Below are positions 1 to 22,213 of a stretch of 25,044 nt of DNA, one piece after another. Each line of letters starts with the position of its first letter. Positions within the stretch are counted from its first letter, which is position 1. The position numbers were made by a program, and so were the translations under genes. Source of the stretch: Jaapia argillacea MUCL 33604 (lineage: Eukaryota > Basidiomycota > Agaricomycetes > Jaapiales > Jaapiaceae); assembly GCA_000697665.1 (NCBI GenBank), contig KL197733.1, positions 28,090-53,133 of the forward strand, written 5' to 3'. The notes beneath the pieces are model-generated. The model did no database searches, was not told where the DNA came from, and saw only the letters and a program-made list of their open reading frames with translations.

Positions 1-348
1 ATGAGTATGTCACTGAGGAATTGTAGAAGAGGATAACGAACTGGATGTGTATGGGGCGTGTGGGTGGTATGATCGCAGATCCTGACTGCGTCGGTATCGT
101 AGAGTGGGTAGGGTTGGTAAGAGCTTGTCCAAGTGTTATGAGTGCCTTAGCGTTAGCGTAAGGTAGCAAATAAGGCTTGTAAGTCTTTTGGGTATTTCTT
201 GCTAACTAGTACTCAGGCTACGATCTTGAGGCAATAGAGGATGACGAGAATGAGCGAACCGGTTGAAGGATACAACTAAAGCGCTGTATTGTTCAAGTGG
301 ACAAGCTACCGAATACAAAGTAGGTAGGTGTCCTTATATACTACAGGA

Positions 349-479
349 ACAATGGGATATCGAACAATGTACTGTAGACAATAACGAATGAGACAATGTC
401 TAAGGACAATGGTGAGCGAGTTAAGGTTCAGAACAATGACAATGAACAATGAAGGTAGAACAATGAAACAGAGACAATG
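349..479 (+). repeat. Array of nine ACAATG motifs
   Basis: ACAATG starts at 349, 364, 393, 406, 433, 439, 446, 460 and 474, all on the plus strand with irregular spacing of 6 to 29 bp. ACAAT is the core recognised by SOX/MATA-type HMG-box proteins, so this could be an enhancer array upstream of the TATA box. It could also be simple microsatellite-like expansion. The motif count is seen directly; the regulatory role is inferred. Confidence 0.5.
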
Positions 480-520
480 ACGAGGCTGTACGAGGCTGTA
501 CCAGACGAGTCATTGGATGC

Positions 521-528
521 TATAAATA
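521..528 (+). promoter_or_regulatory. TATA box (TATAAATA) of the retroelement
   Basis: A near-consensus TATA box lies 124 bp before the ATG at 652. It sits between the ACAATG array and the GATA tract, which fits an LTR promoter. The transcription start would be expected near 550, inside the GATA tract. Confidence 0.5.
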
Positions 529-541
529 GTACAAGGTCCGA

Positions 542-582
542 GATAAGATAGTGTCTGAGATAAGATAGGATAAGATAAGATA
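542..582 (+). promoter_or_regulatory. Cluster of seven GATA motifs
   Basis: GATA occurs at 542, 547, 559, 564, 569, 574 and 579, mostly as AGATAAG, which fits the HGATAR consensus of fungal GATA factors (nitrogen regulators and WC-type proteins). It lies just downstream of the TATA box. It may equally be a simple AGATA repeat; no function is shown. Confidence 0.45.
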
Positions 583-651
583 AGATGAAAGAATGCTAGG
601 TATCATAGACAAGGGAAATGATACGAAAGCAAATGAAGTCTGATAAAAAGA

Positions 652-1935
652 ATGAAAACAACAGTAAATCTACAAGTCCAGACGTGTTCACAACATCGAC
701 ACTCTTGCTCTCGTTCTATTTCTCGGGTTGTTGGCGCTGCGAATGTGCTGCCTCTGTGTACCCTGAACTCTTCGGATCAAGGAGAGCGTCTGCACCGTGG
801 CATCATGCCACATCACTCTGTGCCACTACCCGATTCTCGCATCGAGCCCTCGGTGATTGGCACGAACGCTGGAACAACCATCCACGATCCGTTTACTCAA
901 CGTTGTATTGAATCTACAGCAGTCAAAGACTCTGATCTTAAGTCTTTCCAAGTTTCTAAAGTATTTCCGGACATGGGTGTGCATACCTCACCACATACTC
1001 ACCCTCGAGCAGCAACCTCAACTGTGAATATGAAGCCAGGAATTTCTGCTGCGCATCCTAGTTCTCGTTGCCAACGTGGCATTCAATTTGATCTGGATCT
1101 CATGGGTGTTGAGGATGGAGGCCCAACCTCAGCTGATGGTGGTACTGCTACAGATCCTCATGCTCGGTCTCACCCTTATCGTCACTCCTTGCATTCAATG
1201 GATGATACTCAACAATGTAGGACCCAAGCATGGGTTGCTGCAGGTGTTTCAAATGGTTTCACTGATGCTCTGGTTGACATTACCTTTCCTGGCAAGAATG
1301 TTGTGCCAGTCGACTTAGGTGCTCGTGTCACCAAGTGTGCCCCTCATCCACCGAGGATACAAGTGACTGGTACCACCAATAAAAATAAGGAAGTGTTGTC
1401 ATGCACTCGCAGTGTTCAGAAACTACCTCCATCAGAACCTCTGTCTTCATTGAGGCCTCTTGATGCTTCGGGCTCCTTTATCTCGAGTTTGAGCACTCCA
1501 GAGGTTCCTCGATCGAGTCGATGCAATGTCTTCCCTGTGGCAACAGCCATGACTGTTGACTATAATCCTGCATATTTTGGACGTAGTTTGGCTGTTGAGT
1601 CAAACAGGTCACAGTCTCAGAGTGTTGTTTCAGTTCTAAGAAACATACTGCCATTATCTTTTGTTTCCAATAGCAGAGTACCAAACTCTGGGGCCCCTGA
1701 TAGTATTTCTGGTCAGATGAAACTTGGGTATCAGGCAGTTTCCAGGTCTCAACCCAGTACACCTATTGCTGCACACAGTGCTGCAAAGCACTCCAGTGGG
1801 CTTATTTCTGTGAAGGGAGGGTCTATCCCATTACGTTCAGTGTTAGCTCTGAGACGAAAGGATGAATCTCTCCATCATATTTCTCAAATGGTATTCAATT
1901 ATGTTGGCAAGAACTCGTTAGGACACATTGTCTAG
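652..1935 (+). CDS. Gag N-terminal extension ORF, retroelement
   Basis: An ATG-initiated open frame of 427 codons directly upstream of the gag domain. The product is rich in Ser, Thr, Pro and Val and shows no motif I recognise, no zinc knuckle and no membrane segment. Its stop codon at 1933-1935 lies a few bases before the ATG of the gag-domain frame (1940), which is in a different phase, so the two were probably once one gag polypeptide or are linked by frameshifting. The open length is notable because the surrounding DNA is CpG-decayed. The frame might partly be open because of base composition, so its coding status is only moderately supported. Confidence 0.5.
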   Translation: MKTTVNLQVQTCSQHRHSCSRSISRVVGAANVLPLCTLNSSDQGERLHRGIMPHHSVPLPDSRIEPSVIGTNAGTTIHDPFTQRCIESTAVKDSDLKSFQVSKVFPDMGVHTSPHTHPRAATSTVNMKPGISAAHPSSRCQRGIQFDLDLMGVEDGGPTSADGGTATDPHARSHPYRHSLHSMDDTQQCRTQAWVAAGVSNGFTDALVDITFPGKNVVPVDLGARVTKCAPHPPRIQVTGTTNKNKEVLSCTRSVQKLPPSEPLSSLRPLDASGSFISSLSTPEVPRSSRCNVFPVATAMTVDYNPAYFGRSLAVESNRSQSQSVVSVLRNILPLSFVSNSRVPNSGAPDSISGQMKLGYQAVSRSQPSTPIAAHSAAKHSSGLISVKGGSIPLRSVLALRRKDESLHHISQMVFNYVGKNSLGHIV

Positions 1936-1939
1936 AGGG

Positions 1940-2968
1940 ATGAAATGCCCTCAACCCTACTATTGGGAAGGCTATGACAATGTTGCACAGTTTCAAACTT
2001 GGCTGCAAACTTTGTTACAATGGATGTCAGTCCACCATTTGACTGGTGATGGTCATAACCACACCCAGATTGACATTCTCAGACAGTATCTAAATGGTCA
2101 GGCATTATCCTGGTTCAACCGAGAAGTCAATGATCATCTGGTCATTGGTAACAACATGAAGTTTCAGAATGTTGTCTGTGCTATATATAAGCACTTTCTT
2201 TGCAAGGGTGTTAAAGTTCAGGCCAAGATAGTGCCAGTGGTTACCAGGTTTTATGATTGTTGCTTCCACTCATCGACTGGTGTTGTGGGTTTCTATAATG
2301 ATCTCCTCCTTGCTGCAAAGCGGATGGTTAGGTGGCCAGATGACAAAGCATTTTGTGGGCAATTCATCCAAGGTCTTCCTCTCCCTATATCTCAACACCT
2401 TCTGCAGAAATGTGGAATGTCCATTGCTTCCACATCCTTTGTTCAGATGTACAAGGAGGCATTGAAGTTTGAAGGACTGTATCCAGGATCTCTTTATTCC
2501 TGCAAATCCTCAGTCTCAACAGTGGATAGCGTGCTCTATCAGAAGCCTCAACCACTGAAAACTGTCTCTTCTCTCTCCCAGTCTACACAGACTGGCAGTA
2601 CTAGCTTTCAGACTGATAGTTCCAGTGTCCAGACTGGTAGTTTCAGCATTTTGACTGGTACCTCCAGCTTTTGTGCTGGTAGTTCCAGCTTTCAGACTGA
2701 TAGTTCCAGCTTCCAGACTGGTAGTTCCAGTGTTCAGACTGGTCACTCCAGTTTTCAGACAATTGAAGATTCTGATTCTGACTCTGTATCTTCTGGGACC
2801 TTTATCTTTGGGTCTCAGGGATATGACACCTCCTCGAGAAATAATCATGAGTCTGCAAGTAGGCAGGCTCATAGTAATTCTAATTCAGGTTCTAGTGAAT
2901 CAAGCTACTCTTCTGATTCAACTTCCTGGTTGTCTCAAAGTAGTGGCTCCTCTACAGACTCTTATTGA
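1940..2968 (+). CDS. gag: Retrotransposon Gag-domain protein
   Basis: From the ATG at 1940 the frame encodes 342 residues; an upstream in-frame TTG at 1928 is less likely as the start. Residues 5-150 fit the Retrotrans_gag fold: a Phe/Tyr-Trp-Glu-Gly opening, then FQTWLQTLLQWM, then the hallmark LNGQALSWFNREV. This is the capsid-like part that assembles element RNA into particles in the cytoplasm. After about residue 190 the chain becomes low-complexity Ser/Gln/Thr, driven by a 21-bp tandem repeat, and it ends in a Ser-rich tail. No CX2CX4HX4C zinc knuckle is present. Pol does not follow. I am confident of the gag assignment but not that the gene is active. Confidence 0.75.
   Translation: MKCPQPYYWEGYDNVAQFQTWLQTLLQWMSVHHLTGDGHNHTQIDILRQYLNGQALSWFNREVNDHLVIGNNMKFQNVVCAIYKHFLCKGVKVQAKIVPVVTRFYDCCFHSSTGVVGFYNDLLLAAKRMVRWPDDKAFCGQFIQGLPLPISQHLLQKCGMSIASTSFVQMYKEALKFEGLYPGSLYSCKSSVSTVDSVLYQKPQPLKTVSSLSQSTQTGSTSFQTDSSSVQTGSFSILTGTSSFCAGSSSFQTDSSSFQTGSSSVQTGHSSFQTIEDSDSDSVSSGTFIFGSQGYDTSSRNNHESASRQAHSNSNSGSSESSYSSDSTSWLSQSSGSSTDSY
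2588..2755 (+). repeat. 21-bp coding minisatellite, eight units
   Basis: Eight in-frame imperfect copies of a 21-bp unit, encoding seven-residue repeats close to QTGSSSF, sit in the C-terminal half of the gag ORF. The period keeps the frame. Units differ at several positions, so the array is not a fresh expansion. Confidence 0.75.
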
Positions 2969-3109
2969 GGTGCTCCAGCATTGGGCTCTCTGGACATAAC
3001 ATTGTCACCTACCCTGCATACAGATCTGGCAGAGGATGTTCTTATTTCTTCCCCTTTCATTACTCTCATTTTAGATTCATTCAAGTTGGCCAGTGGATTT
3101 GGTTCTAAT

Positions 3110-3341
3110 GGGGGAGGATGTAAGGATTGGGAGCCAGTTTAGGAAGGTGGCTGAAGTTGTGGCTGAAGCTTGGTCTTGTTTGGTTCCATTCTCGTTCATG
3201 CACGTTGGCACACTCTCTCGATTCCCCAGATTGTCTTACACACTGCATTGTCTATGGTCTCATTCACTCTCTATCATTCTCTCTTGTCACTCTAGTATAT
3301 GTTCCGGCTTATCGATATAAGACGGGTTACAGTTCTACTGC
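3110..3341 (+). repeat. Polypurine tract and possible 3' LTR
   Basis: GGGGGAGGA at 3110-3118 is directly followed by TGTAAGG at 3119, the usual layout of a gypsy polypurine tract and LTR start. A CA at 3340-3341 would give a TG..CA unit of about 223 bp. No second copy is present in the window, so the right end is a guess. The stretch between the gag stop and the tract (2969-3109) has no coding signal. Confidence 0.4.
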
Positions 3342-3369
3342 ATGACTTAGGAATGATTCATTGAGTGTC

Positions 3370-6114
3370 TTACACCATTCCAACCTCACTTCGACCCTTG
3401 CTTTTGGCCGAGTTTTTGAGATGCTTGCCAGCGTCGAGATTTTGGAAGTGGTTTGTGAAATCGTCACCTGTGGGGTCCATCCCAACAGGGACAATACAGT
3501 TGGGATCAGGATCTGCACCAATACTTTGCAGATACCTTGCCCTCACTACAATCCAACCCAGCTGCTTCTCGCGCTCGTCACCATGTGGAGCAGCTTGTTC
3601 CGCTGTTGAATAATACTCCTTCTCTTCATACTCAACCATCATATCTTCAGTGTGTGGATCGAGAATGAGCTGACGGAGGCTGTGCAAGTACGAGATGACC
3701 TCTTGTTGTGGACGCAGGTCTTCCTTGAGCTGATCGAGTAGTTCTTGTAAGCCAGATTTCATCATGATGTCCTTGATCTCTTTGACATGCATTTCCAGCC
3801 ACATCTTCCAAACAACGGGGTCTCCTCGTAAGGTTTCCACTGGCGACTTCATCACCTCTGCTGTGATGACTCAGTTTGCCACTTCAGCAACACATTGAGT
3901 GACAAGTTGGAGGGTAAGATGGAGTTTTGCAAAGAAGGGATCATGTTTGATGTGACCTGGGTCGCCTATTGCCACCCAGATGGCAGCATCAGATTCTCCC
4001 AGATGATATGGACGAAGCATGGGTTCTCCTTGAACATCGAGAAAATCCAATCTGTAAATGTCACGAGATCGCCCTCGGATGGTCGCAGTAGGGGAAATAA
4101 CTTCGATGTTGCCTTTACTACTTCCCGTCATGAAAGCATCCCTTGCCTCTCGATATTCGGATGTTGTGGTATCCATTCCCAACCACACCTCTCGAAACTT
4201 GCCACGAAACATTGACATTGACACCAAACTTGACCAGGTGACCAGAAGGATTGGCCTTGCAGTAATCAAGTTTCAGCTAAGAAGGAGAAAGTGGAGTAGA
4301 AGCCAGCAGTGGAGAAGTGTAACTGCCCAGAGATTGACAGTGGGTCCAAAGTACTTTTGTATCTCGTAGATGCTGAGATCGCCTTCCAGCATAGCTGTAG
4401 GATCTAGAAATCGCCGAATTCGACGATCTACTTGAAAAGCATGGCTGGTTGTAGTGTCTTGAATCCCGCCAATGTGACCGTCGAAGTCCTCAGCAGGAAT
4501 ATCCTTTGCAACTGCCATCTTGATCACGGATCCATTCACGATTGGTAGGACATCCACGAGGTTCTTCTTTGCAGACTCGAGTGCATTAGGGTTGATTCGA
4601 CGACCACCAATCTTCCCTCACAAGAATGCCAGAGTCGTCAATGTGGGCTCGCAGTTTTGATGTTAGCATAAAATCCTCATTGTATATTGGTGACGGGCTT
4701 CCTGCCATTTGAAGGGCATCCGCACATGTGTTGAGGATCGACACTGGAGGCAAAAAATTGGGAATCCACCCTCCTCTCACAGAGTTTAGCAAAATCTGAC
4801 AAGTTGCATTGATGAGGCATCCCTCGATGTTGCCCAGTATTTGGTTTGTGCGATACTCCAGAGTATTGGCAATGGGGATGCTGAGACTTGAGATTTGCAG
4901 AGGGTGCCAAGTGATCTTGCCTTTATTCACCTGGATAACGTTGACAATTTGCCTATGAAGGGATGTGGAATCGTTCTGGCACCACGAGAGTGGATTGCCA
5001 GCAATCAAGGTTCCAGCATATAGACAGACCACGGGTCACCAATCCTCAATATTGTTTGGAAGCATATCTGTAACCACATCAAAGAACTCCTTCAGTGTCT
5101 TGGTGTGTCGAACTCCATAAATTTGTCCAACTTGTTCCTCAACTTGTTTTGGATCGACTCCAAGGACTGCTATGAGGATAAAGGTTGCAAAGCCAAGGTC
5201 TCCAGGATTCTTCTCAGCATATTTCATGAATGCTTCTGCTCCGTCATCAAGAATCGCAATCCGATAGTAAAAGCTGCAAGAGAGTTCATTCACCAAGGAG
5301 TGATGATTCACCTCTAGCCATTCACAGTGGCCCTCGCTTCCCTCATCCATTCTTTCATTCGTCCCCATTCCGTCCTCATCATCACCTATATCCTCCCACC
5401 CATTACCCATATCCTCCCACTCATCGTCACCCGTATCCTCCCACTCACTATCACTTCCATCATCTGTCTTGAAACCCTTCTCCATCTCAAAACATTCATC
5501 ATCAAACACAAGACCGTCATCTTGGACCAGGGCACCCTCTTCAACCCACTTCTTGTGATCAAAATGCAATGGGTTCCAGGCCATTTCAACCAACATCTCG
5601 GCAATCAGCTCCAACCTTGGCCAAATGGGGTCATTGTCCACAATTGGCTTGACCCAGTCCTCACTACACTCCACAGCCACCAACTTCTTCACCACCTCAA
5701 TAGGCAGGAGATGCAAACTCTCATGAAGAACATTGAGAGTAGCCTCTCAATGAGTCACCAGTGCCTCAAAGTGATGGACCCACAATGCTACCATATGCAG
5801 AGAGTATTTGTTTGCCTGCACTACACATTCAGCATCATGTTTGCGACAGTATGCACTATTCAGCAATTGATGATGCTCTGCACGGCAGTGCTTATCAGGA
5901 GTCCTCTGGAACCTCAACAGTCAGTAGTGTAATTCATCTTTCACACACACATCTCACCTTTTGCTAGATATTAGAGGCTCAAAACCTTTTTCATTGCAGC
6001 TCCACGGAAACATCCTGGGGAGTATGTATATCTCAAGAAAAACACAACTGGACGAACTCTCACCTCACTAGGCACCACACCTTTTCCCTTTCTTTTGGTT
6101 CCCTTACATGCCAT
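3370..6114 (-). pseudogene. Copy A: long unknown gene, interrupted by TGA codons
   Basis: Exon 1 (6114-6064) starts MACKGTKRKGKG. A GTGAGA intron follows (6063-5918, 146 nt), and exon 2 starts at 5917. From there one frame runs to about 4621, then a probable small intron (GTGAGG donor, CTAAT branch, exit near 4576 or 4567), and the frame resumes to the TAA at 3370. The product would be over 800 residues: a basic N-terminus, an acidic Trp-Glu-Asp repeat region, a hydrophobic stretch near 4280-4340, and no domain I recognise. In-frame TGA codons lie at 5747, 5036, 4273 and 3871, with protein-like sequence on both sides of each. All could be former CGA. The 3' end of intron 1 reads TG where copy B has AG. 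The stops at 5036 and 4273 could instead be hidden in introns (87 nt and 99 nt models keep phase). A decayed gene is more likely. Confidence 0.6.
5374..5449 (-). repeat. Acidic Trp-Glu-Asp repeat in copy A
   Basis: Three imperfect units of about 24 bp encode WEDTGDDE, WEDMGNG and WEDIGDDE-like stretches, within an Asp/Glu-rich segment of copy A. They produce the repeated ATCCTCCCA pattern on the plus strand. A flexible acidic linker is likely. Confidence 0.6.
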
Positions 6115-6389
6115 GTTTCAAATGAAGGATGGGGGAGTTTATGATGGAGGATGAGAGATTTGTCCCATCTTTCCTTGGGGTGTACTGGCCTTGTCAGTAT
6201 TTCCTGGGGTGCCACTCCTTGGCTTCTGTGAAACAGCTGCCCTTCCGATCCTTCACTCATTGTGGCCCCTTCTCTCACCTTGTTCGATGTCCATTTCATC
6301 CCTGTCAAACTGAGATATGCCTTTTTGGGTAGTTTCATGCCTGAATTTGGCAAGTCAAGATTGTCATGTGTTCAGTAGCCACAAAGTCA
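5825..6389 (-). repeat. Inverted repeat, copy A arm (CpG-poor)
   Basis: Aligns in reverse complement with 7461-7990. It covers the region upstream of exon 1, exon 1, the 146-nt intron and the start of exon 2 of copy A. By eye similarity is roughly four in five bases. A large share of differences are CpG in the other copy and TpG or CpA here. Confidence 0.75.
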
Positions 6390-6432
6390 GTATGTTATGG
6401 TTCTCGAGAATGGCACTGTGTAATGCATCAGC

Positions 6433-6685
6433 CTTCTGCAGACTGACTATTGACACGTTGGAACAACCTCAAGCTAGGGTGCTTTGCTGAGTGTTATTCT
6501 GCATGATCCAAAGTTCACAACAACTACATCTCGATAAGTTGGATTCCTGGATAATTATCAACTGGGGACCAATGACAGAGCAAATGCAGGTCAAGACAGT
6601 AATGTTAAACAAAACACACAGTGGTTGTACAGATGTAGACAAGTGTCTGTATCAATTTACAATGTCAACAAGCACAGAGCACAAG
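6433..6685 (+). repeat. Noncoding direct repeat, left copy
   Basis: Matches 8107-8358 in the same orientation. Shared anchors include CTTCTGCA at the left, GATTCCTGGATAATTA in the middle, CAGTGGTTGTACAGATGT, and ACAATGTCAACAAGC at the right. No reading frame is conserved between the copies, so this is probably a noncoding repeat or old transposable-element fragment. CpG is depleted here relative to the right copy. Confidence 0.65.
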
Positions 6686-7460
6686 TGACAACCCCTCGAT
6701 GCTAACCACATCTCAAGAATGACAGCATAGATTAGTTGTGCACCTATTCAAGACCTTGCATCACCAAAAGTTGCACAAATCATTTCACAACCACCAAAGG
6801 GAGAAAAGGGAGTCCTTACAGTGTGGCGGGACTTGAGGCCATATTCCGTCAGATTACTTGGTGAGGGGAGACTGTTGAATAGGGTGGTGAGGTACTGGGG
6901 TTGATTTATGTTGGGCTGTGGTTACCCTACCCCTGTGGTAACCCTAGAGCAAATCATCAGTTGGTCACCAGAAGCAGAGACTCGAGATTAATCACTTGAG
7001 GCACATCTGTGAGGCCTTCATACTTTGTGTGACTCAGAAGGTGCATTGAGTGACCCATCAAGTGAACCATCAACCGACACAACAACTTACTGGAGCTGGG
7101 GATAACGAAGCTATAAGGGTAGTCGCATGAGAAAGGGGGTGGATGGGTAGATGAAGTTGGGTGAGCAAGTTTGCAATTCTGGATGGATGTGAGGCAGAAC
7201 GAGAGGATAGATCTATTGAGGGAGGCACCAGGGATGATGAAAAATTGGTGCTGGCAAGCACTCTGCACCCTTCGGAGAGTGAGGAGGATAAACGACAACC
7301 AATCATTCTCGTTCTCGAGAGGAGGAAACCCGTGGAACTGAGACACGCAGTTTGCGAGATTCGACAGACATGAGAGGGCGACATGGTAGTAAACACACAC
7401 CAATTCAGCTTCCATTCAAAAGGGTAGAGGTGTTCTCAACTCGAAAGGAGCCTCTGGGAG
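6686..7460. other. Spacer between the repeat arms, no clear gene
   Basis: Nothing is firmly supported. A plus-strand frame at 7161-7373 (charged, rich in Glu and Arg) and an overlapping minus-strand frame at 6957-7415 are both open, and neither has recognisable motifs or splice context. GGTTACC..GGTAACC around 6920-6946 forms a perfect 7-bp inverted repeat. CpG content rises through this interval from low on the left to normal on the right. Confidence 0.4.
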
Positions 7461-7990
7461 TCACTGCAGCCACTGAACACTCGACAATCTTGAGTTGCCA
7501 AATTCGGGCATGGAACTCCCCGAAAGGGGATCTCTCGTTTGACAGGGGAACGGGTATGAAGGATCGGAAGGGGAGCTGTTTCACAGAAGCCAAGCCATGG
7601 CACCCCAGAGAATACAGACGAGACTGGCACACCCTAGGGAAAGGGAGCCAAATCTCTCGTCCTCAATCGGAAACTCGCCCGTCCTCCTCTCGAAACATGG
7701 CACGTAGGAAGAGCACCAAACGAAAGGGAAAGGGTGTGGTACCTAGCGAGGTGAGAGTTCGTCTGGGTGTGTATTTCGTCAGATGTAAATATCCCGTAGG
7801 ACATCTCCACGGAGCCGCAACGAAAAAGATTCCGAGCCTCTAATATCCAGCAAAGGGTGAGATGCGTGTGCGCAAGACGAATTACACTACTGACAGTTGA
7901 GGTTCCAGAGGACTCCCGATAAGCACCGCCGTGCAGAGCGGCGTCGATTGCTGAATAGCGCATACCGTCGCAAATGCGACGCTGAACGGG
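7461..7990 (+). repeat. Inverted repeat, copy B arm (CpG retained)
   Basis: Reverse-complement partner of 5825-6389. Here the CpGs survive: the 60 bases at 7921-7980 hold nine, while most counterparts in copy A are TpG or CpA. It contains the promoter, exon 1, intron and early exon 2 of the copy B gene. Confidence 0.75.
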
Positions 7991-8049
7991 AACAGGAGAC
8001 CACCAAAGTCGCGGGAGCCCGGAGAAATGTTCTGCAACGATTCCTTTGA
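7697..8049 (+). CDS. Copy B: short basic protein, truncated paralogue of copy A
   Basis: Exon 1 (7697-7750) reads MARRKSTKRKGKGVVPSE. A 146-nt intron follows (7751-7896, GTGAGA..CTGACAG), and exon 2 (7897-8049) stays in phase and ends at TGA. The product has 68 residues, strongly basic, with an Arg-rich stretch (HRRAERRRLLNSAYRRK) that looks helical and might bind nucleic acid. It matches the start of copy A for about 50 residues, then diverges after the DAER segment and stops, so the gene is probably a 3'-truncated relative of the long copy A protein rather than a natural short form. The splice sites are intact. No known family is recognised, and a bZIP reading was considered but no leucine zipper follows. 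Confidence 0.5.
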
Positions 8050-8106
8050 GTTATGAATGTTACACAGGGCGAGTGTTTGCGTACCATAGAAAGACCGTGG
8101 ATCTAG

Positions 8107-8358
8107 TCTTCTGCACCAAACTGACTGCCATCGACATGTTGAAACGACCTCAAGGTGATTCCGTACAATCCATCATTCACACAGCAACTACGTCTCAACA
8201 AGTTAGATTCCTGGATAATTAACAACAGGGGATTAACGACGGGGCCAACGGGAGCCGAGACAATAGTGTTAAGCGACAAATACAGTGGTTGTACAGATGT
8301 GTGTGTCAGACAGGCGTTGGTATCGATGTACAATGTCAACAAGCGGGGAGCGCATGAT
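8107..8358 (+). repeat. Noncoding direct repeat, right copy
   Basis: Same-orientation partner of 6433-6685, with CpG better preserved. It begins about 60 bp after the end of the copy B gene. A minus-strand frame crosses it (8103-8342) but is broken in the left copy, so it is not treated as coding. Confidence 0.65.
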
Positions 8359-8501
8359 GGGAGCGACTCGATTGATACATGCGTAGATCAAGAATGTGGG
8401 TGAGCTGCGGGTCATAGTTCAGCACAACATAGAAGGGGAGACAAAGTACACGCACGGAAAGGTATCACAAGAAACGCGGATTAAGGAAGGTCACATCCGT
8501 C

Positions 8502-9206
8502 CTAGTACTCGTCCATCCTACTCTTTTTCTTCTTGGGCTTCCGCTTCTGGGGCGATCTCTGTAGCTCGTTGAGGTAGACATCGTCGTAGCTACGAAACGT
8601 GCAGAGACCAATGTCCGAGTCGTAATCTGCGAGTGTGGCCCAAACGCAGTGCCATCTCGGAGGTGGCTGGCCCTCGTCCGAAGAGAACTTTAGGGCAATC
8701 GCGAGGTGATTCTGATTCCATCGAGATTCCTTCCCCACCCCCACACCGAAAATAGCATCGATCTCCCCGTCCTCCGGCTCCGACCTCTTGAACGCCTTGT
8801 CGGTCAATTTGACAAAGGTGCAGTCGACGATGGTGAGCTCTCGGGGCAGGCGCCCACCGTACCCATCGTCAGAGTTCACACAGTCCCTAATTACACTAGC
8901 GAGGCCTTCATCCATTTCCAAGTCCTTTGGAATGCCTTTGTGAATGGGATCATACCCATCGACGAGGATTTGGAAGGTGGTATTGTCGGAAAAGTCGAGG
9001 GTGAGAGCGGGGTGCGTGGGGGATCGACGTACGCGAGTGAGGGTCTTGCCGATGATGACCGAGGGGTCAACTCCAATCGTGTCTATTCGAAGGCCAGCGG
9101 GTTGAACACGCCTTTTAGTCGGGGAGGGAGGTGGATGGGAGGACGATGAGGATGATGCTGAGTGTAGAGAGAGGGAGTCGGTGGTGGGGGGTGTTCGAGA
9201 AAACAT
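8502..9206 (-). CDS. Conserved-looking unknown protein, 234 residues
   Basis: An intronless frame with an ATG at 9206 and TAG at 8502. Residues 1-32 are Ser/Pro-rich. The core (about 38-205) has ordinary globular composition, with segments such as VIIGKTLTRVRRS, LTLDFSDNTTFQILVDGYDP and RWHCVWATLADY. The C-terminus is a lysine/arginine tail (KRKPKKKKSR), a likely nuclear localisation signal. I recognise no named domain. A TATA box sits about 75 bp upstream of the ATG, and a CT-rich stretch lies between. Base composition is normal, with no sign of CpG decay. An antisense frame at 8706-9149 is judged a shadow because it lacks such features. Confidence 0.75.
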   Translation of the reverse strand: MFSRTPPTTDSLSLHSASSSSSSHPPPSPTKRRVQPAGLRIDTIGVDPSVIIGKTLTRVRRSPTHPALTLDFSDNTTFQILVDGYDPIHKGIPKDLEMDEGLASVIRDCVNSDDGYGGRLPRELTIVDCTFVKLTDKAFKRSEPEDGEIDAIFGVGVGKESRWNQNHLAIALKFSSDEGQPPPRWHCVWATLADYDSDIGLCTFRSYDDVYLNELQRSPQKRKPKKKKSRMDEY

Positions 9207-9281
9207 AAGGCTGAAACAGATGATACAGGTTGAATGAGAGAGAGACGCGTCTCCTTTGAAAGACAGAATGAAGGAGAGTGG

Positions 9282-9288
9282 TTATATA
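9282..9288 (-). promoter_or_regulatory. TATA box of the 234-residue gene
   Basis: TATATAA on the minus strand, about 75 bp upstream of the ATG at 9206, followed by a pyrimidine-rich stretch. Spacing suits a fungal core promoter. Confidence 0.5.
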
Positions 9289-10421
9289 CAAGAATTACTC
9301 TTGAAAGCGAGTCAATGGAATGTGGTCACTGTGGTCTGCCGGAAGCCACCCACAGCCACCCACGCCCTGAAGAACCCACCACCGAAATAAATTGCCTTTT
9401 TTGGAGGCCACATCATTAATGCATCAGATTCATTGTTCGCAGAGTCGACAAGTTACAATTACTTTCTATTCGAGTAATACCACTGGCATAACAGATACGG
9501 CTTGCCATCTCCTACTAGTCGTCGCTTTCGTCGATACCCTCACCCTTCGCAACCTCTTCCGATACCCCACGTGGATGTCTCCTCTAATGTCGATCTTCCA
9601 ACTCGCTTGCATTGGCCAGAATCTATTCTAGAGCACTGCTTCAATAGACCCCACGACGGGGTTTAAGCGTCCTATGTGCGACTCGGTTAGATATACTTCT
9701 CGATACAAACCGTCAATCTCTGCCTCACATCTCGCCAAGAGGGGGTAACACATTGTCGCCGATTCGAAATAACCGCCGCCTGTGCTCGCTTCGGCTACCT
9801 TAAAATGTGAGTTCAGATTCGGGTAGGCTTTCTCACTCCTAACCCCATTTTTCATCTGCGTGCAGTGATCTACAACACGTCTGACCTACTCGACGGAGAC
9901 AGCCGTCTCTTGCTGGGCTCCGTTTGCCTCAGCACCCACAACCAGTCCTCTCCGAGATCAGACAGATATATGGTATATATGGTTCCCCTCGCCCCCTGAG
10001 CAAGTGCACCGGCGACAATGTTAATGAGACACAGCGGACATCTTGATCAGTGATCACTCGCCTCTCCTAACTTTGAAGATTCTCTCGTGCTGATTTCTGC
10101 TCGCGTCTTGCTTTATCGCGTTTGGTCAAATTTTTACAGTAGACGCAGTGGTTTGACCTGTAAATGCATGTGAAGGTCAGTGGGATGTCCAGTAAGACTC
10201 TGTCGGGTCCTGGAGCACACCGCCAACCCCAAATCGTGGAAGAATTTCTTCACTACAGCAGAACTACGTTCTCGAACAATTTCCATCACGATTCAGGTGG
10301 CGAAAATTTGATCTATTGCTCACGGCACGTGATGCCTCCTTCGTCACTCGCATTCCTTTGTCCTCGCTCATATGTCCATCCTCCGCATCCATTGAACATT
10401 CTCCCTCGGCTTTCCTTGGTA
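9289..10421. other. Intergenic, one weak small ORF
   Basis: No recognisable gene. A minus-strand frame of 75 codons at 9855-9628 starts with ATG and is preceded by a CACGCAG that could be a 3' splice site, but nothing else supports it. A TATATATGG stretch near 9968-9980 could be an AT-rich promoter element. Confidence 0.35.
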
Positions 10422-10688
10422 ATGGACGAACCGTCTCCGAACATCGAGGGTCGCGTGGTGTTCTTCGACTCCTCGGATTCCAAGGGTCTGTTTCGTTCGA
10501 GAGCTGCGACCCACACGCTTCACCAGGTACGCAGCGCTAGAAGTTGTTTTCCCTCACTTTGTGTTTCTCACACTATTCTTGTTTCTGATACAACCAACGC
10601 GTAGAACCCTGGTCTCGCTTCGCTGAACGTTTGTCTCCAAACAAACGCTCTGAAGATTCACCGGCGTTTCGGGCCATTCAATTCATGA
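10422..10688 (+). CDS. Putative small spliced gene or gene fragment
   Basis: The ATG at 10422 opens an exon beginning MDEPSPNIEGRVVFFDSSDS. A good donor (CAG|GTACGC at 10527), a CTGAT branch and the acceptor GCGTAG (ending 10604) define a 78-nt intron, and the frame then runs to TGA at 10688 (62 residues). However, a different frame of the second exon looks more protein-like (PWSRFAERLSPNKRSEDSPA, to TAG at 10713). It could be joined in phase by an alternative donor, GTCTGT, near 10488. The gene is therefore real-looking but the model is unsettled. No family is recognised, and it may be the 5' remnant of a larger gene. Confidence 0.35.
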
Positions 10689-10713
10689 CGAACATCCTCA
10701 CCGGAAACTCGTG

Positions 10714-12167
10714 TCCATAGTTATTCAACTAGCTAAACCTTACGCGGTGCTTTAGCTTTGCCCTGACGTTAATTGTACTGGTAAGGTTCTTCCTATGTAC
10801 AATATGCTGCCGCCACCGGCTCATTGATAGTGATCGCACAGACGCCGCTGCCGCTACCTCTAACGATGCGCTCTGAGTAGTATTCTTTATGCCGTAAGTT
10901 GGTCTCAGTCCCACTTCATTGTACGTCCAAGTTATGCATCCGTGCCGATCAGGCACATTCTACAAGTACGGAGTCAAGTTAAGCCGGATACGCATCTTAG
11001 CACGCTCTTTATGGCAGGTGAGGATCACCTTCTTGCTGCTTCCACTAGGTTCCCTTCCACATTATTTGGCGGCCGGTGTAAATTCCTGTCCGCGCAAACC
11101 ATCAACCTCGAGTTTCAGAACCTACCGACCAAAGGAGTTGAAGACCCATCTGATAAGCCTCGTCGTCGGGATCAGCACCTCCATCTAGTCTGTCACGGCA
11201 CCTGGACCCAGCAAGCATTCTGCAGGAACGCAGACCAAACTTCAGCGCTCTTCGGGTGCCTTCTTCTGATTATGGAGATAAGATATCGGGGCCTCTGGAC
11301 CGACAACCTGTGATCAGTTTGATCCAGAGCTCTGCAATCGAAAAACTTGCGAAACGATGCGTAATTCCCGAAACCTGCAACTGTGTCACATCATTATTTG
11401 ATCATCCGGACCTGCTGAGATTTACAATGGATATCTCAAACAGCTGAATAGTCCAGCCGGAGGCTCCGCGGCGAGTGCACGAAGCTACCTTTGACGAAGC
11501 TGACTGCCTGTTTATGATAGGGCGAGACGTCTGCGATGACACAATCAATCATCTCGGAGCAGCGTGACTGGCCAACAAGGTTTGCAGCCTGCTTCATCGA
11601 CGAAGGGGCCCGATCGTGGCGCGCCACGATATGGTGCGTTCTCCGTGATTTGAATACGAGTGGGTGTTTGTGGTGACTTGTGTGTTTGGCAGAGGTGTTT
11701 ATCGTGCTTGATCTAAGCGCTCCCGCGAACAACCACTCGGGAAGATCGTCAAGGTTCTTACATCGCGCCGAAGCGAAATGAAATAGCCATCGGCAAAATC
11801 GAACAGTTCCAAGATCCAAGAGTATCGAGGTCTCTCGTCAGTCCTTGCAAATGCAGGAAAAATCCTACAGCAAAGACTCAATAATCTGAGGGCGGGGCGT
11901 ACAAACGGTTGGAGAGCAATGAGGTCCTCTTCAGCACCCAGCGCCACACTCCTTTACCGTCACAAGTTCACTTTCCCACGTTCCCAAAATGTGAAATCCC
12001 GAGGTGAAGCCAAACATAGACAAATATCATTCCCCGAAGCCACAACCACCAAGCACTTTGCTCTCGATTTTCCCATTGTTCACTTATAAGTCGATAAAAT
12101 CTGGTGAGCGGTGAGCATCCCCTACATGAGGTACCTTGGAAGGTCTAACCCGCTTCGTCTTTAATAG
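10714..12167. other. No clear gene; scattered coding-like fragments
   Basis: Short protein-like stretches occur on the plus strand near 11100-11330, but frames change without convincing splice sites. A minus-strand frame at 11819-11436 lacks an ATG and motifs. This may be an old gene remnant downstream of 10422. A perfect 18-bp palindrome lies at 11613-11630. Confidence 0.35.
11613..11630. repeat. Perfect 18-bp palindrome
   Basis: ATCGTGGCGCGCCACGAT reads the same on both strands, with an AscI-type GGCGCGCC core. It lies in otherwise featureless DNA. It might bind a dimeric regulator, or be chance in GC-rich sequence. Confidence 0.5.
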
Positions 12168-12550
12168 TGTGCCTCCGTCATTCGTCGTCTTTCCCCGACA
12201 GAGCCTCGGGTCGAGCAATCTGGCTCCGACGGACTCGACCATATATCCCTTCAGTCTGTGGCACGTACAGCCAGCCAGAGTGCTCAATCTACTGCCGACT
12301 TCGTGAGCGAGATGACCTCCGCTCTCGCCTCGAAAAATGACACTTCGCCCATACACGACCGTCCAGTCCCACAATTTCTGCCTGTATCGTCTTTGCCTCC
12401 CCCCTCACAGACGCGCTGCTAGTCACTCTACAGCCTTCCGGGCCCTGGGATAAGTCTGCGTCTATGTCGTCAATCTCGTTACCCTCCACGTCTGGCGTTT
12501 GTGGTAGGTTCGATGCGCCCTTGGATGCTGTCGCGGGCAGCTTAGGATAA
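12168..12550 (+). CDS. Possible exons of a Ser-rich unknown protein
   Basis: An exon-like frame begins after a likely 3' splice site (CTAAC branch at about 12145, TTTAATAG ending 12167), with a GTGAGC donor at 12103 as its partner. It reads 12168-12383 with normal protein composition. A phase-0 intron (12384-12433, GTATCG..CTACAG, 50 nt) then gives a second exon to TAA at 12550, including PSGPWDKSASMSSISLPSTS. The first in-frame ATG is at 12312 (62 residues if used). The upstream exon and true start are not found. Ser/Pro composition suggests a disordered, perhaps regulatory protein. It could be a fragment of one gene together with 12640-13230. Confidence 0.3.
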
Positions 12551-12639
12551 CGGTGGCTGTCCTCCCCCTCTTTGTGATACCCCTTGCGACTTTCTTGGAA
12601 TTATATTTTCGTCTCCCGGCCGCTCTCGCGATTTCTTTG

Positions 12640-13230
12640 GATGGATAAATTTGTATGAAACCCGCTCCTCCTCCTTACCTCGAGCCTCGTGTCCCTTGTT
12701 ACAACCCGACCCATCAGCTGGGAACCCTTCTATGTATCCCAGAATTTCTGACCAGACAGATCTGTTTAACTCTCTGTGTTCCTCGCCTGCTCCTAAGGCC
12801 CCACCCGTACCCTTGCCTTCAGTGCTTCGGTGTCGATGGAAGAGTCATCCACTGAATCCGACAACCAGGCAGATCTTTCCGCTTGCCATCCTTGACGAGC
12901 ACCTGTCTTCCTCATCCATTCTTGTGACATTGTCGCGCTCCCTTCCCCTTCGCCGATTTCCAGCCGAATGATCGCCGCAAATTCACGCCACAATGATTGA
13001 GCAAAGCCGACGATCGGTACGTCGCAAACGTCTGAGATTTAGGAGTGATTTAGGCCCTCTCCCCCTCCTCCATCGAGACGGCGTCCAACCCCTCATAACT
13101 GCGTGCAATACTCGTGGTCTCGGCGAGGTAACTCGGAAACTTCCTTTTACACTATTTGTCGCAGTCTGCCCACCAAATCCACTACCAGGCAGAAGCCTCG
13201 GCGAATGGAGTACATTTCAGTAGTTGATTT
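12640..13230 (+). other. Ser/Pro-rich coding-like fragments
   Basis: Several overlapping plus-strand frames are protein-like in turn: 12651-12971, then a different frame around 12827-12893 (SASVSMEESSTESDNQADLS), then 12993-13223. No single splice model links them. This may be a multi-exon gene continuing from 12168 or a decayed one. Confidence 0.25.
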
Positions 13231-17631: not shown

Positions 17632-19123
17632 GTCTGCATCCCGTAAGTTTATCATTGTTGTGAAGCATGTGTACGTTTGTTGTAATTCCTCTGTGAGTGG
17701 CTCCGCCCATATTTCTACCCGTCGCCCTCGTCTCACTGGTATTCGCAATGAATATTGTCCAGTGTCAGCTTATAATCTCGAAACAATATTTGTAAACAGT
17801 TATTTTTCCTCTTGACTGTATGTAAGATTCTTCACTTGATTCACTCCTCTCTAGAATTGTTTCTCCTTGACCGGCTCCAAATGTTGAAGCAGAAGTTCCC
17901 CCCTCCAACGTGTTTGTGGTGAGGCGAATCCAACTAGAACGCGTTCTCACCTTCGCCTCTTCATGTTGCCGTGCGTGCCCCACGTTACCACACTTGCTTT
18001 TTGTTTACAAAGAGGAATGGAAATCCCGCGGGATTCCTTCCATTGGGACCGATCAGTAGAAGCAATGCGCTTCTCCTGCCTGATGCCGTTACTCGCCACC
18101 ACAGTTTCGAGCCCTCTGTCGTATTTCCCTACCTTTGCGACTTAAAATAGGCATGTCGTGTACTTCTCAGAGCATAGATCTCGTTATGCTACTGCGGTTG
18201 TACGAAATCCCGACCCTGCGTTGGATACGTTCGTTATCGAACCTGCCAGAGTCATTCTCATTTTGTGATTCATGATATACGTCTGCATAGATATGAACAT
18301 GGCCGCCAGATCACTTACGCAGCTGAAGATAACAATCGATTAAAGATACGCTAGAGGGAGTCATACGTGGGCGGCTCCTCCGCTAGTATTTTCACTGTAA
18401 CCCCTGAATCCAAGGGATATCTCCTCGCGACGCGATGTATTGGGCGGCTAGAGTTCGGAAGCCTTCCTATAGGGTTATTCGCATACTAAAAGGGCGCCGC
18501 CCCACGGGGCGTAGAGTGACGAGATGGCCCCATTGTATTGAATTCCACTACCACGGGCCCCAGTCCGCGAGGACGTACGAAACTTTCAAGACCTCCATAG
18601 CACGCGTCGGGTCCGAGAATAGCAGAGCGAACAAGTCCAACACAGGACTCTTTGAGGAGACCAATCGTTGAAGGAAACCACAGATACGGCGTGTACTTGT
18701 CACGCTGAACGGGTTATCATTCTTTGGCGGAGATGATGGTGCTGAGAAGTATAGGTTTGGAGACGAATCGAGATGGCTATCAGGAAACAGCGACGACCCA
18801 GTAAAATTTAGAAAGGAGACTTGCTTCGAAGGACGTGGTTTAGATTATCGGGGTTCAGGAAGGTCTGAATAACGACCTTCAAATTTCGAGGGTAAAGAGA
18901 GGTACGGTGCGCACCTACGAGCCTGTGTATTTTCGTCGATCAGCTTGATCACAGCGGGGTTCATGAGGGTTCATGCAAGCATCGATATCCATGCGGAAGT
19001 TGGACTGAAGTCCACCAACTATGGCTCGGCGATTGCCTCGGCTCTACATTACCTACATTCACGAACTGCCTTGACTTTGATTCTCAATCGCTGGCTTTGT
19101 TCTCGCTTCTCTCCAGGTAAACA
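17632..19123. other. Intergenic, nothing recognised
   Basis: No gene is supported over about 1.5 kb. Short frames such as 18435-18671 are Arg-rich and look like GC-rich chance openings. The right end (about 19080-19123) becomes pyrimidine-rich, as expected of a fungal promoter just before the next gene. Confidence 0.4.
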
Positions 19124-19759
19124 ATGGGTAAGACTCGCCGTATGTTATTGGACGAATCCACTGACCCAGAGGACCTCAATAGCTTCAGCAGAGGAAGTAA
19201 TCTTGAACGCCCCTCATTCGCCCCCTACCAAGGCCATCGAAGCCTTCCATGAAGTTGTCCACGACATCAAGGCGGCTATCATAGCGTCTCGCCACCATTG
19301 GAACAAGCATGAGCCCAAGATGTGGTCGCGTGCTACCGGAATAACAGATCATGAACTGGTCGCGTTCGATATCGCCAAGGATCTCGTCCAGTGTCGTAGT
19401 GGACCTACGTCCTACGGAACCATCATTTTTGGCAAGATTAGGCTTCCTGCCGTGAATGACGAGGAAGGAGAGGGGTTCGTTCACGTCAGGTTAGTGGCCT
19501 TGCTCCGTGTGCCTGTGCCTAGTCACTAACTCCACCTATCGACCACAGGATCCATGATCCTCCCAATCGAGTACGTACGCTAACAGCGGTCTCATCAAAC
19601 CCTTCGCGATTTTGAAGATCCTTGCATTCTCAGGGCATTGATGACATCAAGTTCCACTCCCTCTTCACCGATGAAGGCAATCGTAATGCGGAGGGACACC
19701 CGACGACCTGGCGCGCCATCCAGACGATAGATACTCCACTCGAGTTTTTCAATGAGTAG
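19124..19759 (+). CDS. Unknown protein, 152 residues, four exons
   Basis: Exons 19124-19127, 19183-19489, 19549-19570 and 19634-19759; introns of 55, 59 and 63 nt with GTAAGA, GTTAGT and GTACGT donors, and CACTAAC or CTAAC branch sites in the last two. Phases match and the total is 153 codons. Exon 1 holds only ATG plus one base, with good context (ACAATGG); splicing yields MASAEEVILNAPHSPPTK. The chain is soluble-looking, with an amphipathic helix near residues 17-40 (AFHEVVHDIKAAIIASRHHW) and a later LPAVNDEEGEGFVHVR segment. It has no signal peptide or membrane span. I do not recognise the family. The longer unspliced frame from 18945 is explained by an intron that happens to be open. It converges on the cyclin gene, 3' ends about 400 bp apart. 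Confidence 0.8.
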
Positions 19760-20165
19760 AAGTATTATCTATATGCCATTCTGGATACGTAGTAGGGACG
19801 CACCTCGAGCGAAGTGAACGGATATGTACTGTATGTATACCTGTCGATATCAGACGCGAGTTAACCATCCGAGTCGATGGTGTGATCCGAGCGTACTTTG
19901 AGCTGCCTTACTGTGAACAAAATCAGGTTCAGTTTCTATTGCGGGTATAAGAGAGTAGGGTACACAAGGAGATAAGCAACGCACAGTATGTACAATCCGT
20001 ATTTGCCAACCGGACGACACGCGATCAAGACATCTATATACAACGTCAACGAAACGACGTGAGGAGAGAGAGTGCATAGAGGCATATAAAGTTCGAGACA
20101 CAATGACAAGAAAGTAAGAAAAGAAAAGAAAGAACGAGAATGCAGTACATAGACACACGATAAGG

Positions 20166-22213
20166 TTAACAATACATCCGCCCACCCACAATCGACGCAT
20201 AGTCTGACACCCCACCAGTAGGAATGAAGTAATTAGAGGAATCTCCCCCATCCGTTGTACGAAATCCATCGAACGAAAGCGTCGAAACATCACCATACCC
20301 ATACGAGGATGATTGCACTGCAGGCAACCGCGGGGAAACACTCGGCTTATCGGCGAACTGGCTCGGATACGGATATCCATAACCCAAGAGAGACGGGCAG
20401 TGGGGCATGGGCGTTTGCACGTCCGCATCCGTGAAGGTCGTCATCTGGATAGTTCGCTCGCCTTCGGACGAGGAATCTGAACAGGTCGAGGAGGAGGAAG
20501 GAGAGAAGCTGAGGGTAGGTGTGGGAGGACTGGGACTGTGGGTGTTCGGCAGGTACTGGACAGGGTAGGAAGACGAGCTGGGTGGAGGCATCGTCCACGG
20601 GGGAGATGGTCCTCCTATTGCGCCGTACAACGAGAACGTTGTCGCTGCCACCCCCAACGGGGTCGGATCCAACGACGCCAAATCCGGCACCGGAGGCGGG
20701 GCAAACGACGGAGCGCGGAGAACATCCTGATTAAAATAAGACGACGCATTTGCGTCTCGGAGTGCGGGGAGGGTAGCGCTTCGACGAAGGGACGATGTAC
20801 GAGGGGGTACTGATATCGGCATTGAGGCGGGCATACGAAGGAGGCTTGGGACTCCAAGAGGAACGTCTTGCGAGGCGAGCGTCAAAGGCGACATAGTGGG
20901 ACCGAGGTTCCTTGCCGGAGCCTGGTAGCGTTTATTCGGACTCAGGTCGCCATCGCTCTTGCTCTTGGTCAGAGTCCGAACGGGCATCTTGCCGACCCAA
21001 AGCCGCCATTCGAGGGCATCACCCAACGCGCGCTCACACCTGCCGATCTCCCTGGGTGGGAGGCCGGACAACTTGGCCCAAGCGCGATTCGAATAGCAAC
21101 GATCCTGCATAAACTTGGATGCGAGGATGAGAGAGGCGAGGAAAGTGCGTCTCGGGCACAAGAGAGGTGACGGAAGGGCAGGAAGAGGAGGGAGAGGGGC
21201 AGATGGACCCTTCGGCTTCTTCGCGAGCCCCTCGATCATCGCAGGATTGGATGTCGAAGGTACTTGAGATTGGGCGAATGGATCGTGTGACTGTGGCTGC
21301 CCGCACCCATCTTGAATGCGGACTGTATCCATGGTATCCGAATCTTCGGATGCGATGCTGTCGGGGCTAGCGTATGATTGGGTGTGATCAACCTCCTCAA
21401 GGAGGTCCTCGATTCGCACGATTCGGCTATCCAACTCCTTGTCGTCCGACACTCCTTCCCCCGACTTCTCCTGTTGCACCAACTTCGGGACCTTCGAGCG
21501 AATCGCCTCGAGGTAGCACAGCGCCGTCTGGAGAACGCAACCCGAAGTCCGCGATCGTCGCAGAACTTCGTGCACGAACCCCTTCATTGGGACGAGGTTG
21601 CTCGTGGCTTGGCTGGACGGCAGCGACGCACATGGGTCCGCTGAAGACGACGACGTCTGCGAGCAGGAAGAAGTGGGGGATGTCGAAAAAGGCGAAAACT
21701 GGGTGGTGGGCGAGATAGGGGAGGGGAGTTGGACGTTGCGGCGTGTATGCGAGATGGTGGGAGTGGGGGGCGGGATCGAGTCCTGTGTAGTGCAGAATGG
21801 GACTCTCGCGGAGGTGAGGAAAATTTGAGGTATTTCGTGTGGGTGCCATATGTCACATAGGGACTTCACAGCTTGGTCTTGATGGGCGGATTCTTAGCTG
21901 AATGTGGAAGATGTGACCAAAGACAGGGCTCACCAACTAATCCTGTGACATACTTCGTTTTCTGCGCATCCCGAGGGGGAAAGTCCTTTGGTACATGGCA
22001 CACCGACGAAGAAGATGATATAGAGGTGAAATCGCATATAGAGGAAGCATGGGTTGATTGGGGAGGAGATGATGATACAGATGATGAAGGGGTATTCAGG
22101 TAGTTGACTGGAACTGAGCGCGATGGAGACGGAGAAGTGTATGGTTGCCACCGGGCCCGGGCGCGCGTGGCCCCGGGTCCCCGGTGAGCTAGTTGGTGAG
22201 AAACAGAATGCAT
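20166..22213 (-). CDS. Pcl5-like Pho80/Pcl-family cyclin
   Basis: Two exons (22213-21934 and 21877-20166) around a 56-nt intron (GTGAGC donor, CTAAG branch, AAG acceptor); 664 codons, 663 residues. The cyclin box is split: a first part around residues 85-115 (TKYVTGLVDQAVKSLCDIWH), a Ser/Pro-rich insert, FVHEVLRRSRTSGCVLQTAL near 194, another insert, and the core RRTFLASLILASKF at about 336 with NRAWAKLSGLPPREI and ending at WRLWVGK near 390. Family members bind and direct a Pho85-type kinase; Pcl5 targets the amino-acid regulator Gcn4 for turnover in yeast. The last 270 residues are Ser/Pro/Tyr-rich and probably disordered. Pcl5 identity is inferred from resemblance; another Pcl member is possible. 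Confidence 0.85.

Follow-up and report, generated by a model that had tools for sequence, protein, structure and literature searches.

The stretch of DNA analysed here (the window, 25,044 nucleotides, C25:28090-53133) belongs to one of the 95 contigs of the 43.7 Mb genome of Jaapia argillacea, and contains two inverted copies, A and B, of a gene with a common exon 1, intron and early exon 2, an arrangement already described in the original prediction for this locus. Copy A lies within a CpG-poor domain and has lost many of its CpG dinucleotides, whereas the arm of copy B has largely kept them. These copies are members of a small family: a search of the genome with window 5800-8000 and the matching stretch of contig C11 resulted in further copies, whose existence that prediction had thought worth looking into, at the start of C25 and at the end of C11. 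We refer to the copies in the window as wA and wB, to those at the end of C11 as cA and cB, and to those at the start of C25 as pA (C25:1-1049, minus strand) and pB (C25:4199-5911, continued at 8575-10074 behind an insertion). The genes are arranged in head-to-head pairs at all three sites, and cA and cB together cover window 3375-7804 (4377 aligned positions, 91.2% identity). Some of them are cut short, since the homology of wB with the family stops at 7988, pA ends at the start of C25, and cB at the end of C11. The features of the window are collected in Table 1.

Table 1. Features at the left end of the window, in window coordinates (CpG o/e, observed/expected ratio of CpG; LTR, long terminal repeat).
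Feature	Position	Strand	Basis or remark
CpG-poor domain	1001..7250		500-base windows starting 1001 to 6751: CpG o/e 0.08-0.76
Gene copy A with upstream part, CpG-decayed	3375..6525	-	aligns with C11:1241793-1244966, identity about 89-90%
Copy A putative exon 1, ATG to GT donor, MACKGTKRKGKGVVPSE	6064..6114	-	read from sequence
Copy A early exon 2, TTCCAG acceptor to first stop	5747..5905	-	intron borders inferred from sequence
Gene copy B arm (upstream part, exon 1, intron, early exon 2), CpG-rich	7276..7988	+	713 bp, CpG o/e 0.94
Copy B putative exon 1, MARRKSTKRKGKGVVPSE	7697..7750	+	read from sequence
Copy B early exon 2, truncated at homology end	7909..7988	+	sequence comparison
LTR of element interrupting gene A	3119..3374		partner LTR C25:17084-17339; ends read by eye
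Gag-like reading frame, CpG-poor	1940..2968	+	weak Ty3_capsid match, E 1.6e-4, 21.6 bits, cut-off 29.1
LTR of younger nested element	130..695		partner C25:20659-21224, 99.1% identical; DNA not CpG-poor

The decay had been reported at 5825-7990. It is present there, but it is not limited to that interval, as the CpG-poor domain (about 1000-7250) includes the gag-like frame, gene A and the spacer. On its left, the 500-base windows starting at 1, 251 and 501 have a CpG o/e of 0.89-0.94, and on its right the ratio lies at 0.87-1.15 for window starts of 7501 to 9251. As for the controls, all 20 one-kb windows of four other stretches of the genome gave values of 0.79-1.12, whereas the 4 readable one-kb windows of a fifth stretch (C1:500000) gave 0.34-0.47, which indicates that CpG-poor stretches occur elsewhere in the genome. 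C25 itself shows values of 0.07-0.62 per kb at about 6000-12700 and 29000-35000, and the last 10 kb of C11 range from 0.86 to 1.06, except for the last full kilobase (0.63).

The two arms pair at 5807-6105 with 7709-8007 (81% complementary) and at 6169-6255 with 7557-7643 (84%). The earlier observation that a CpG of B is usually TpG or CpA in A holds for 29 of the 44 aligned B CpG, with 6 being CpG and 9 something else, while seen from the other side the 7 CpG of A correspond to 5 CpG and 2 CpA in B. Within columns 608-757 of the arm alignment, which comprise the 3' half of the intron and early exon 2, 13 of the 15 CpG of B are TpG or CpA in A. Outside CpG, the whole arms of A and B differ by transitions at 38 of the 260 other C/G positions and by 34 transversions, and these many differences make the arms old duplicates.

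At the protein level, early exon 2 is translated as RTPDKHRRAERRRLLNSAYRRKCDAE followed by CGG (Arg) in B, and as RTPDKHCRAEHHQLLNSAYCRKHDAEC in A. The seven residues that differ (7, 11, 12, 13, 20, 23 and 27, numbered from RTP) had been described as mostly arginine in B, a pattern that we also find, and all seven are CGN arginine codons in the C11 copy. Among the five copies covering this part, residues 11, 13, 20 and 27 are altered solely in A, whereas at residue 7 Cys is found in pA and pB too, as is His in pB at residues 12 and 23. For the site with Cys in B and His in A, a CGY ancestor had been deduced, and CGC is indeed the codon found in cA and pA, which means that B too lost one CpG there. 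The first stop of copy A in exon 2 is a TGA at 5749-5747, where the C11 copy has CGA.

The C11 copies allow the changes to be tabulated by dinucleotide context over window 3375-7804, and CpG sites turned out to be far more often altered than the rest, so that the outcome named in the original prediction as refuting it was not observed. From C11 to the window, 158/496 CpG became TpG or CpA, compared with 72/1716 transitions at other C/G positions (CpA 30/599, CpT 16/555, CpC 26/562) and 95/2165 at A/T, while in the opposite direction, from the window to C11, the loss was 25/226. The loss affects both strands, with 70 TpG, 82 CpA, 58 kept and 4 other among 214 CpG. In this comparison we found neither the preference for CpA that marks the Neurospora type of repeat-induced point mutation (RIP), with CpA at 30/599 against CpG at 158/496, nor a preference for TpCpG (58/200, against 100/296 for the other NpCpG, p 0.28).

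The direction of the changes was further assessed by comparing three copies at a time in the arm block (B1), in two further blocks (B2 and B3), and in the set formed by wB, cB and pB (the B set). CpG-capable sites were set apart, and direction was taken from the majority of the three copies, with the caveat that the copies exchanged sequence and some changes may therefore be assigned to the wrong one. The CpG loss of wA amounts to 25/66, 22/64 and 10/46 in B1, B2 and B3, that is, 22, 11 and 19 times its non-CpG rate (18/841, 18/475 and 16/1216 changes). The corresponding CpG losses of cA are 0/16, 0/20 and 5/36, with 27/850, 11/468 and 55/1255 changes at non-CpG sites. As for the remaining copies, pA lost 1/18 (B1), pB 1/22 (B2) and 21/68 (B3), and in the B set the losses were 0/38 for wB, 1/40 for cB and 5/48 for pB. 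The loss is thus specific to CpG, and also to certain copies and blocks. Another 38 CpG positions of cA in B3 are altered alike in wA and pB, and would correspond either to decay predating the parting of these two copies or to changes shared through exchange.

The consequence for the coding sequence is a selective loss of arginine. Throughout the 850 codons compared between cA and wA, 32/53 CGN arginines were lost, against 2/11 AGR arginines and 103/786 changes in other codons, which makes the arginine loss a by-product of the CpG contained in CGN. The lost arginines became His (10), Gln (8), Cys (5), stop (5), Trp (4), Gly (1) or Ser (1) in wA. The compared frame contains 6 stops in wA and 1 in cA; the latter carries TGA where wA reads CGA, so cA is not an intact reference protein either. 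A broken splice acceptor in copy A (ACAG in B, ACTG in A) was also considered as a sign of damage and rejected, because an in-frame TTCCAG located 12 bases further on is kept in wA, wB and cA, with TTACAG in pA and pB. In Pfam, neither of the two long frames of the C11 copy matched a family (E up to 1), nor did three pieces of copy A (E up to 0.01), while the matches of the two pB pieces are far under the curated cut-offs (E 0.13 and 0.31) and were taken as chance. The function of the gene plays no part in the argument on CpG decay. Even though C25 starts and C11 ends within a family copy, no run of at least two TTAGGG or CCCTAA units was found in the first 53 kb of C25 (minus 4873 letters) or in the last 10 kb of C11, and we therefore do not call these sites subtelomeric.

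Gene A is interrupted at 3375 by a retroelement with 256-bp LTRs of the TG...CA type. The 5-bp target duplication CCATT, at 3375-3379, is found on both sides of the element, and C11 has a single CCACT. The two LTRs show 12 differences (5 CpG-type, 6 other transitions and 1 transversion, over 261 columns including the duplication). A younger element is nested inside this older one, its LTRs differing at 5 of 566 positions, 4 of them CpG-type, and this younger element, to which window 1-695 belongs, is not CpG-poor where readable. The older element being CpG-poor and the younger one not fits a gradual decay. The gag-like frame also contains seven in-register repeat copies at a spacing of 21 bases (window 2571-2776). 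The younger element seems to be flanked by TCAAC at one end and by TCGAC at the other, a difference that may stem from a CpG change in a target duplication.

CpG loss of the same kind is seen outside the gene family. A host segment (window 18381-20741), overlapping a cyclin-like frame in the 3' part of the latter (PF08613 for 20166-21587, 21.3 bits, cut-off 21), recurs with 92.7% identity in the spacer that separates pA from pB (C25:1159-3512). This second copy lost CpG at 43 positions and the window copy at 5, with non-CpG differences at 62/1979. The imbalance may be due in part to selection on the native gene. In addition, the spacer on the A side recurs to the right of the truncated arm B as a direct repeat (6431-6681 / 8109-8351), where 12 CpG of the right copy are TpG or CpA in the left one and 2 show the opposite, with 39/203 non-CpG differences.

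The family members show signs of having exchanged sequence. The 3' half of the intron is common to wA and wB, unlike cA, pA and pB: over columns 595-679, the non-CpG differences of wA are 5/73 with wB, 13/73 with cA, and 13/70 with each of pA and pB. On the other hand, pA and pB have the B-type part of the intron in common, and pA is nearly identical to wA, decay included, across the last 340 columns of B1. We read these shared intron and decayed parts as probable gene conversion within and between pairs, with an assembly artefact as an alternative in the case of pA, located at the contig end. There, C25:1 to about 340 matches window 5478 to about 5815 almost fully and then passes abruptly into CpG-richer sequence, a change that would represent either gene conversion or an assembly join.

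The enzymes that could methylate such DNA appear to be encoded in this genome. Matches to PF00145 are found at three loci, on contigs C4, C5 and C2. Those on C5 and C2 have the DNMT1 RFD domain PF12047 upstream of PF00145 on one strand, whereas on C4 PF00145 is followed, some 2.5 kb downstream and on the same strand, by an SNF2 domain (C4:532272-532709), an arrangement known from DNMT5/Rad8. Judged by their Pfam domains, these are two DNMT1-like loci and one DNMT5/Rad8-like locus, Dnmt1 and Rad8 being the two classes reported for basidiomycetes (PMC5073141). The second DNMT1-like locus (C2:149239-152415) is partly CpG-poor (0.77, 0.35 and 0.30 per kb), unlike those on C4 and C5, and may itself be decaying or methylated. 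In Pleurotus, the mean methylation reported is 14.6-16.4% for CG and 1.3-1.7% for CHG/CHH (PMC5974365).

CpG methylation in transposon-rich silent DNA, followed by deamination, is the explanation for the decay of copy A that we regard as quite probable. Copy A, which is interrupted by the LTR element and embedded in transposon-rich DNA, would be a dead member of the head-to-head family, and silencing would have spread to it from the retroelement. Its cytosines would be, or would have been, methylated at CpG, and the slow deamination of 5-methylcytosine, rather than an active mutator, would turn CpG into TpG or, on the other strand, into CpA. Arm B and its right flank, which kept their CpG, would behave as largely unmethylated DNA. 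In a plausible order of events, the gene would first have been duplicated head to head, after which A and B would have exchanged the 3' half of the intron. The insertion of the LTR element and silencing would have come next, followed by the loss of CpG, and the decayed part would finally have been copied between A and pA. The loss follows the chromatin domain or the transposon and not copy number alone, as 1000-7250 is poor and arm B and the C11 copies are largely spared. The original prediction attributed the pattern to methylation and deamination, or a RIP-like process, acting on one copy: the CpG decay of A and the arginine loss stand, and methylation with deamination fits best, whereas the restriction to one copy was too narrow, with the loss spanning about 6 kb in the window plus other blocks of C25, and the RIP-like part is less well supported.

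Several results weigh against this explanation. On its left side (C25:17001-20000) the older element is no more than mildly CpG-poor, with 0.68-0.77 per kb, compared with values down to 0.08 on its right side, within the window, and the spared copies are not untouched, as shown by the C11 copy in B3 (5/36), by pB in the B set (5/48) and by the one CpG lost in B. The fall in CpG loss past 6875 is only modestly significant (4/28 vs 153/428, p 0.023), and the border may owe part of its position or its sharpness to recombination. The part of pB behind the insertion, pB3 (C25:8575-10074), lost CpG at 21/68 against 5/1205 changes at other sites, a ratio of about 89-fold (range 38-274 from the error of the denominator alone). 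This differs from copy A in the same block (21:5 vs 10:16, p 0.004) and looks more like a burst, even though the two lineages could also appear to differ if wA had exchanged sequence with a further, unseen copy. Finally, the losses of copy A relative to C11 cluster by strand (61 runs vs 76.5 expected, z -2.5), 83 of the 135 neighbouring pairs of losses being on the same strand where shuffling gives 66.7 on average (p 0.003), and one distance bin of pB3 shows a strand excess too (20/29, p 0.03).

The most resistant of the alternatives, although we hold it to be rather unlikely, is that the border between A and B is mainly a product of recombination, an undecayed C11-like copy having recently overwritten arm B and the sequence around it. 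With bins summed, the window and C11 differ at 354/3447 positions over 3375-6874, at 26/500 over 6875-7374, and at just 4/430 over 7375-7804, and exchange is visible in the intron half confined to wA and wB and in the decayed 3' part of wA and pA. However, the CpG of C11 lost in the window amount to 153/428, 4/28 and 1/40 in the same three intervals, so that over 6875-7374 the differences persist while the CpG loss has already fallen. The loss thus seems to end before the point of near-identity with C11, and the two borders may not coincide, these being small numbers. Moreover, such a replacement by itself leaves the CpG decay of A unexplained.

A RIP-like process, in which repeats recognised by homology during the sexual cycle would have their CpG cytosines mutated in bursts, is in our opinion improbable. 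Such a process would account for pB3, altered almost solely at CpG, and for the same-strand runs of copy A, and CpG-biased RIP-like mutation has been reported for basidiomycetes (PMC4352252, PMC4014442). Nevertheless, arm B (0/38) and the C11 copy (0/16, 0/20, 5/36) were hardly touched despite being repeats of 0.5-4.5 kb with about 90% identity, the host segment lost its CpG mainly in one copy (43 vs 5), and non-CpG changes built up alongside in copy A (18/841, 18/475, 16/1216). This sparing of other repeat copies, together with the lack of a preference for TpCpG, makes a homology-triggered RIP fit less well, and CpA was not preferred either. Strand clustering was rejected as a proof of RIP, since no overall excess was found in three other, partly overlapping sets (19/36, 36/67 and 38/74; p 0.39, 0.31 and 0.45). 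The near-pure CpG changes of pB3 and the one-strand runs of copy A do lead to a variant to which we give little credence, where an episodic, strand-coordinated CpG mutator, that is, a CpG-type RIP, would act on repeats in silent chromatin atop ordinary deamination. The plain age of an unconstrained copy A, with CpG as the most mutable site everywhere, is very hard to reconcile with the data: the window and C11 differ at non-CpG sites also, copy A has stops (6 per 850 codons compared) and the C11 copy some CpG loss in B3 (5/36), but over the equal time since A and C11 parted the CpG losses in B1 and B2 were 25/66 and 22/64 against 0/16 and 0/20, with non-CpG changes alike (18/841 and 18/475 against 27/850 and 11/468).

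CpG-type mutation in basidiomycetes is already on record, and the view that it still needs documenting in fungi does not stand (PMC4352252, PMC4014442, PMC5870257). A CpG signature was described for transposons of Microbotryum and two rusts by Amselem et al. in 2015, who relate the basidiomycete signatures to the deamination of methyl-cytosine via a Masc2-like enzyme and not RID (PMC4352252). Rhizoctonia solani AG8 shows a CpG to TpG bias, with CpG mutations more frequent near repeats, in a paper where a CpG rather than a TpCpG bias is expected for Agaricomycetes (PMC4014442), and Heterobasidion parviporum shows the same CpG to TpG bias, whose cause its authors left open (PMC5870257). TpCpG RIP-like mutation is named for Microbotryum and other Pucciniomycotina (PMC4352252, PMC4014442), and RIP signatures were surveyed across 1,239 fungal genomes in 2025 (PMC12543289). 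The present locus constitutes a clean internal experiment, as it offers decayed as well as intact copies of one gene, the direction being given by copies from outside. The decay can thereby be followed at the protein level (CGN, hardly AGR), its border can be mapped, and slow deamination can be weighed against a burst. It bears on the question of whether basidiomycetes have an active CpG-type RIP, which one locus cannot settle.

Among the known systems, classical RIP in Neurospora shares with this locus the C to T transitions in duplicated DNA. Contrary to it, here CpA is not the target (30/599) and several repeat copies are largely spared, and the mutation of both members of a pair was not found, either in the gene family (25/66 in A, 0/16 in the C11 copy, 0/38 in B) or in the host segment (43 vs 5). 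Methylation induced premeiotically (MIP) is known from Ascobolus and Coprinopsis. This mechanism would methylate duplicated DNA without immediate mutation, and deamination could come later. The sparing of several repeats argues against its being a rule that holds for every duplicate. The RIP-like mutation of Pucciniomycotina also concerns CpG cytosines in repeats, and differs by its TpCpG preference. The closest counterparts are the CpG decay of basidiomycete transposons and the cases of R. solani and H. parviporum, with which our locus shares C to T changes at CpG, in or near repeats and without a CpA preference, the presence of DNMT1-type enzymes, and stops arising from CGA to TGA. In Rhizoctonia and Heterobasidion, however, the changes are polymorphisms between nuclei or isolates and not decayed repeats. 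The process is thus of a known kind, and this is a real and clear case of it, whose value resides in what the other basidiomycete cases do not have: a duplicated gene whose twin arm lies about 1.6 kb away, is largely intact and acts as a paired internal control.

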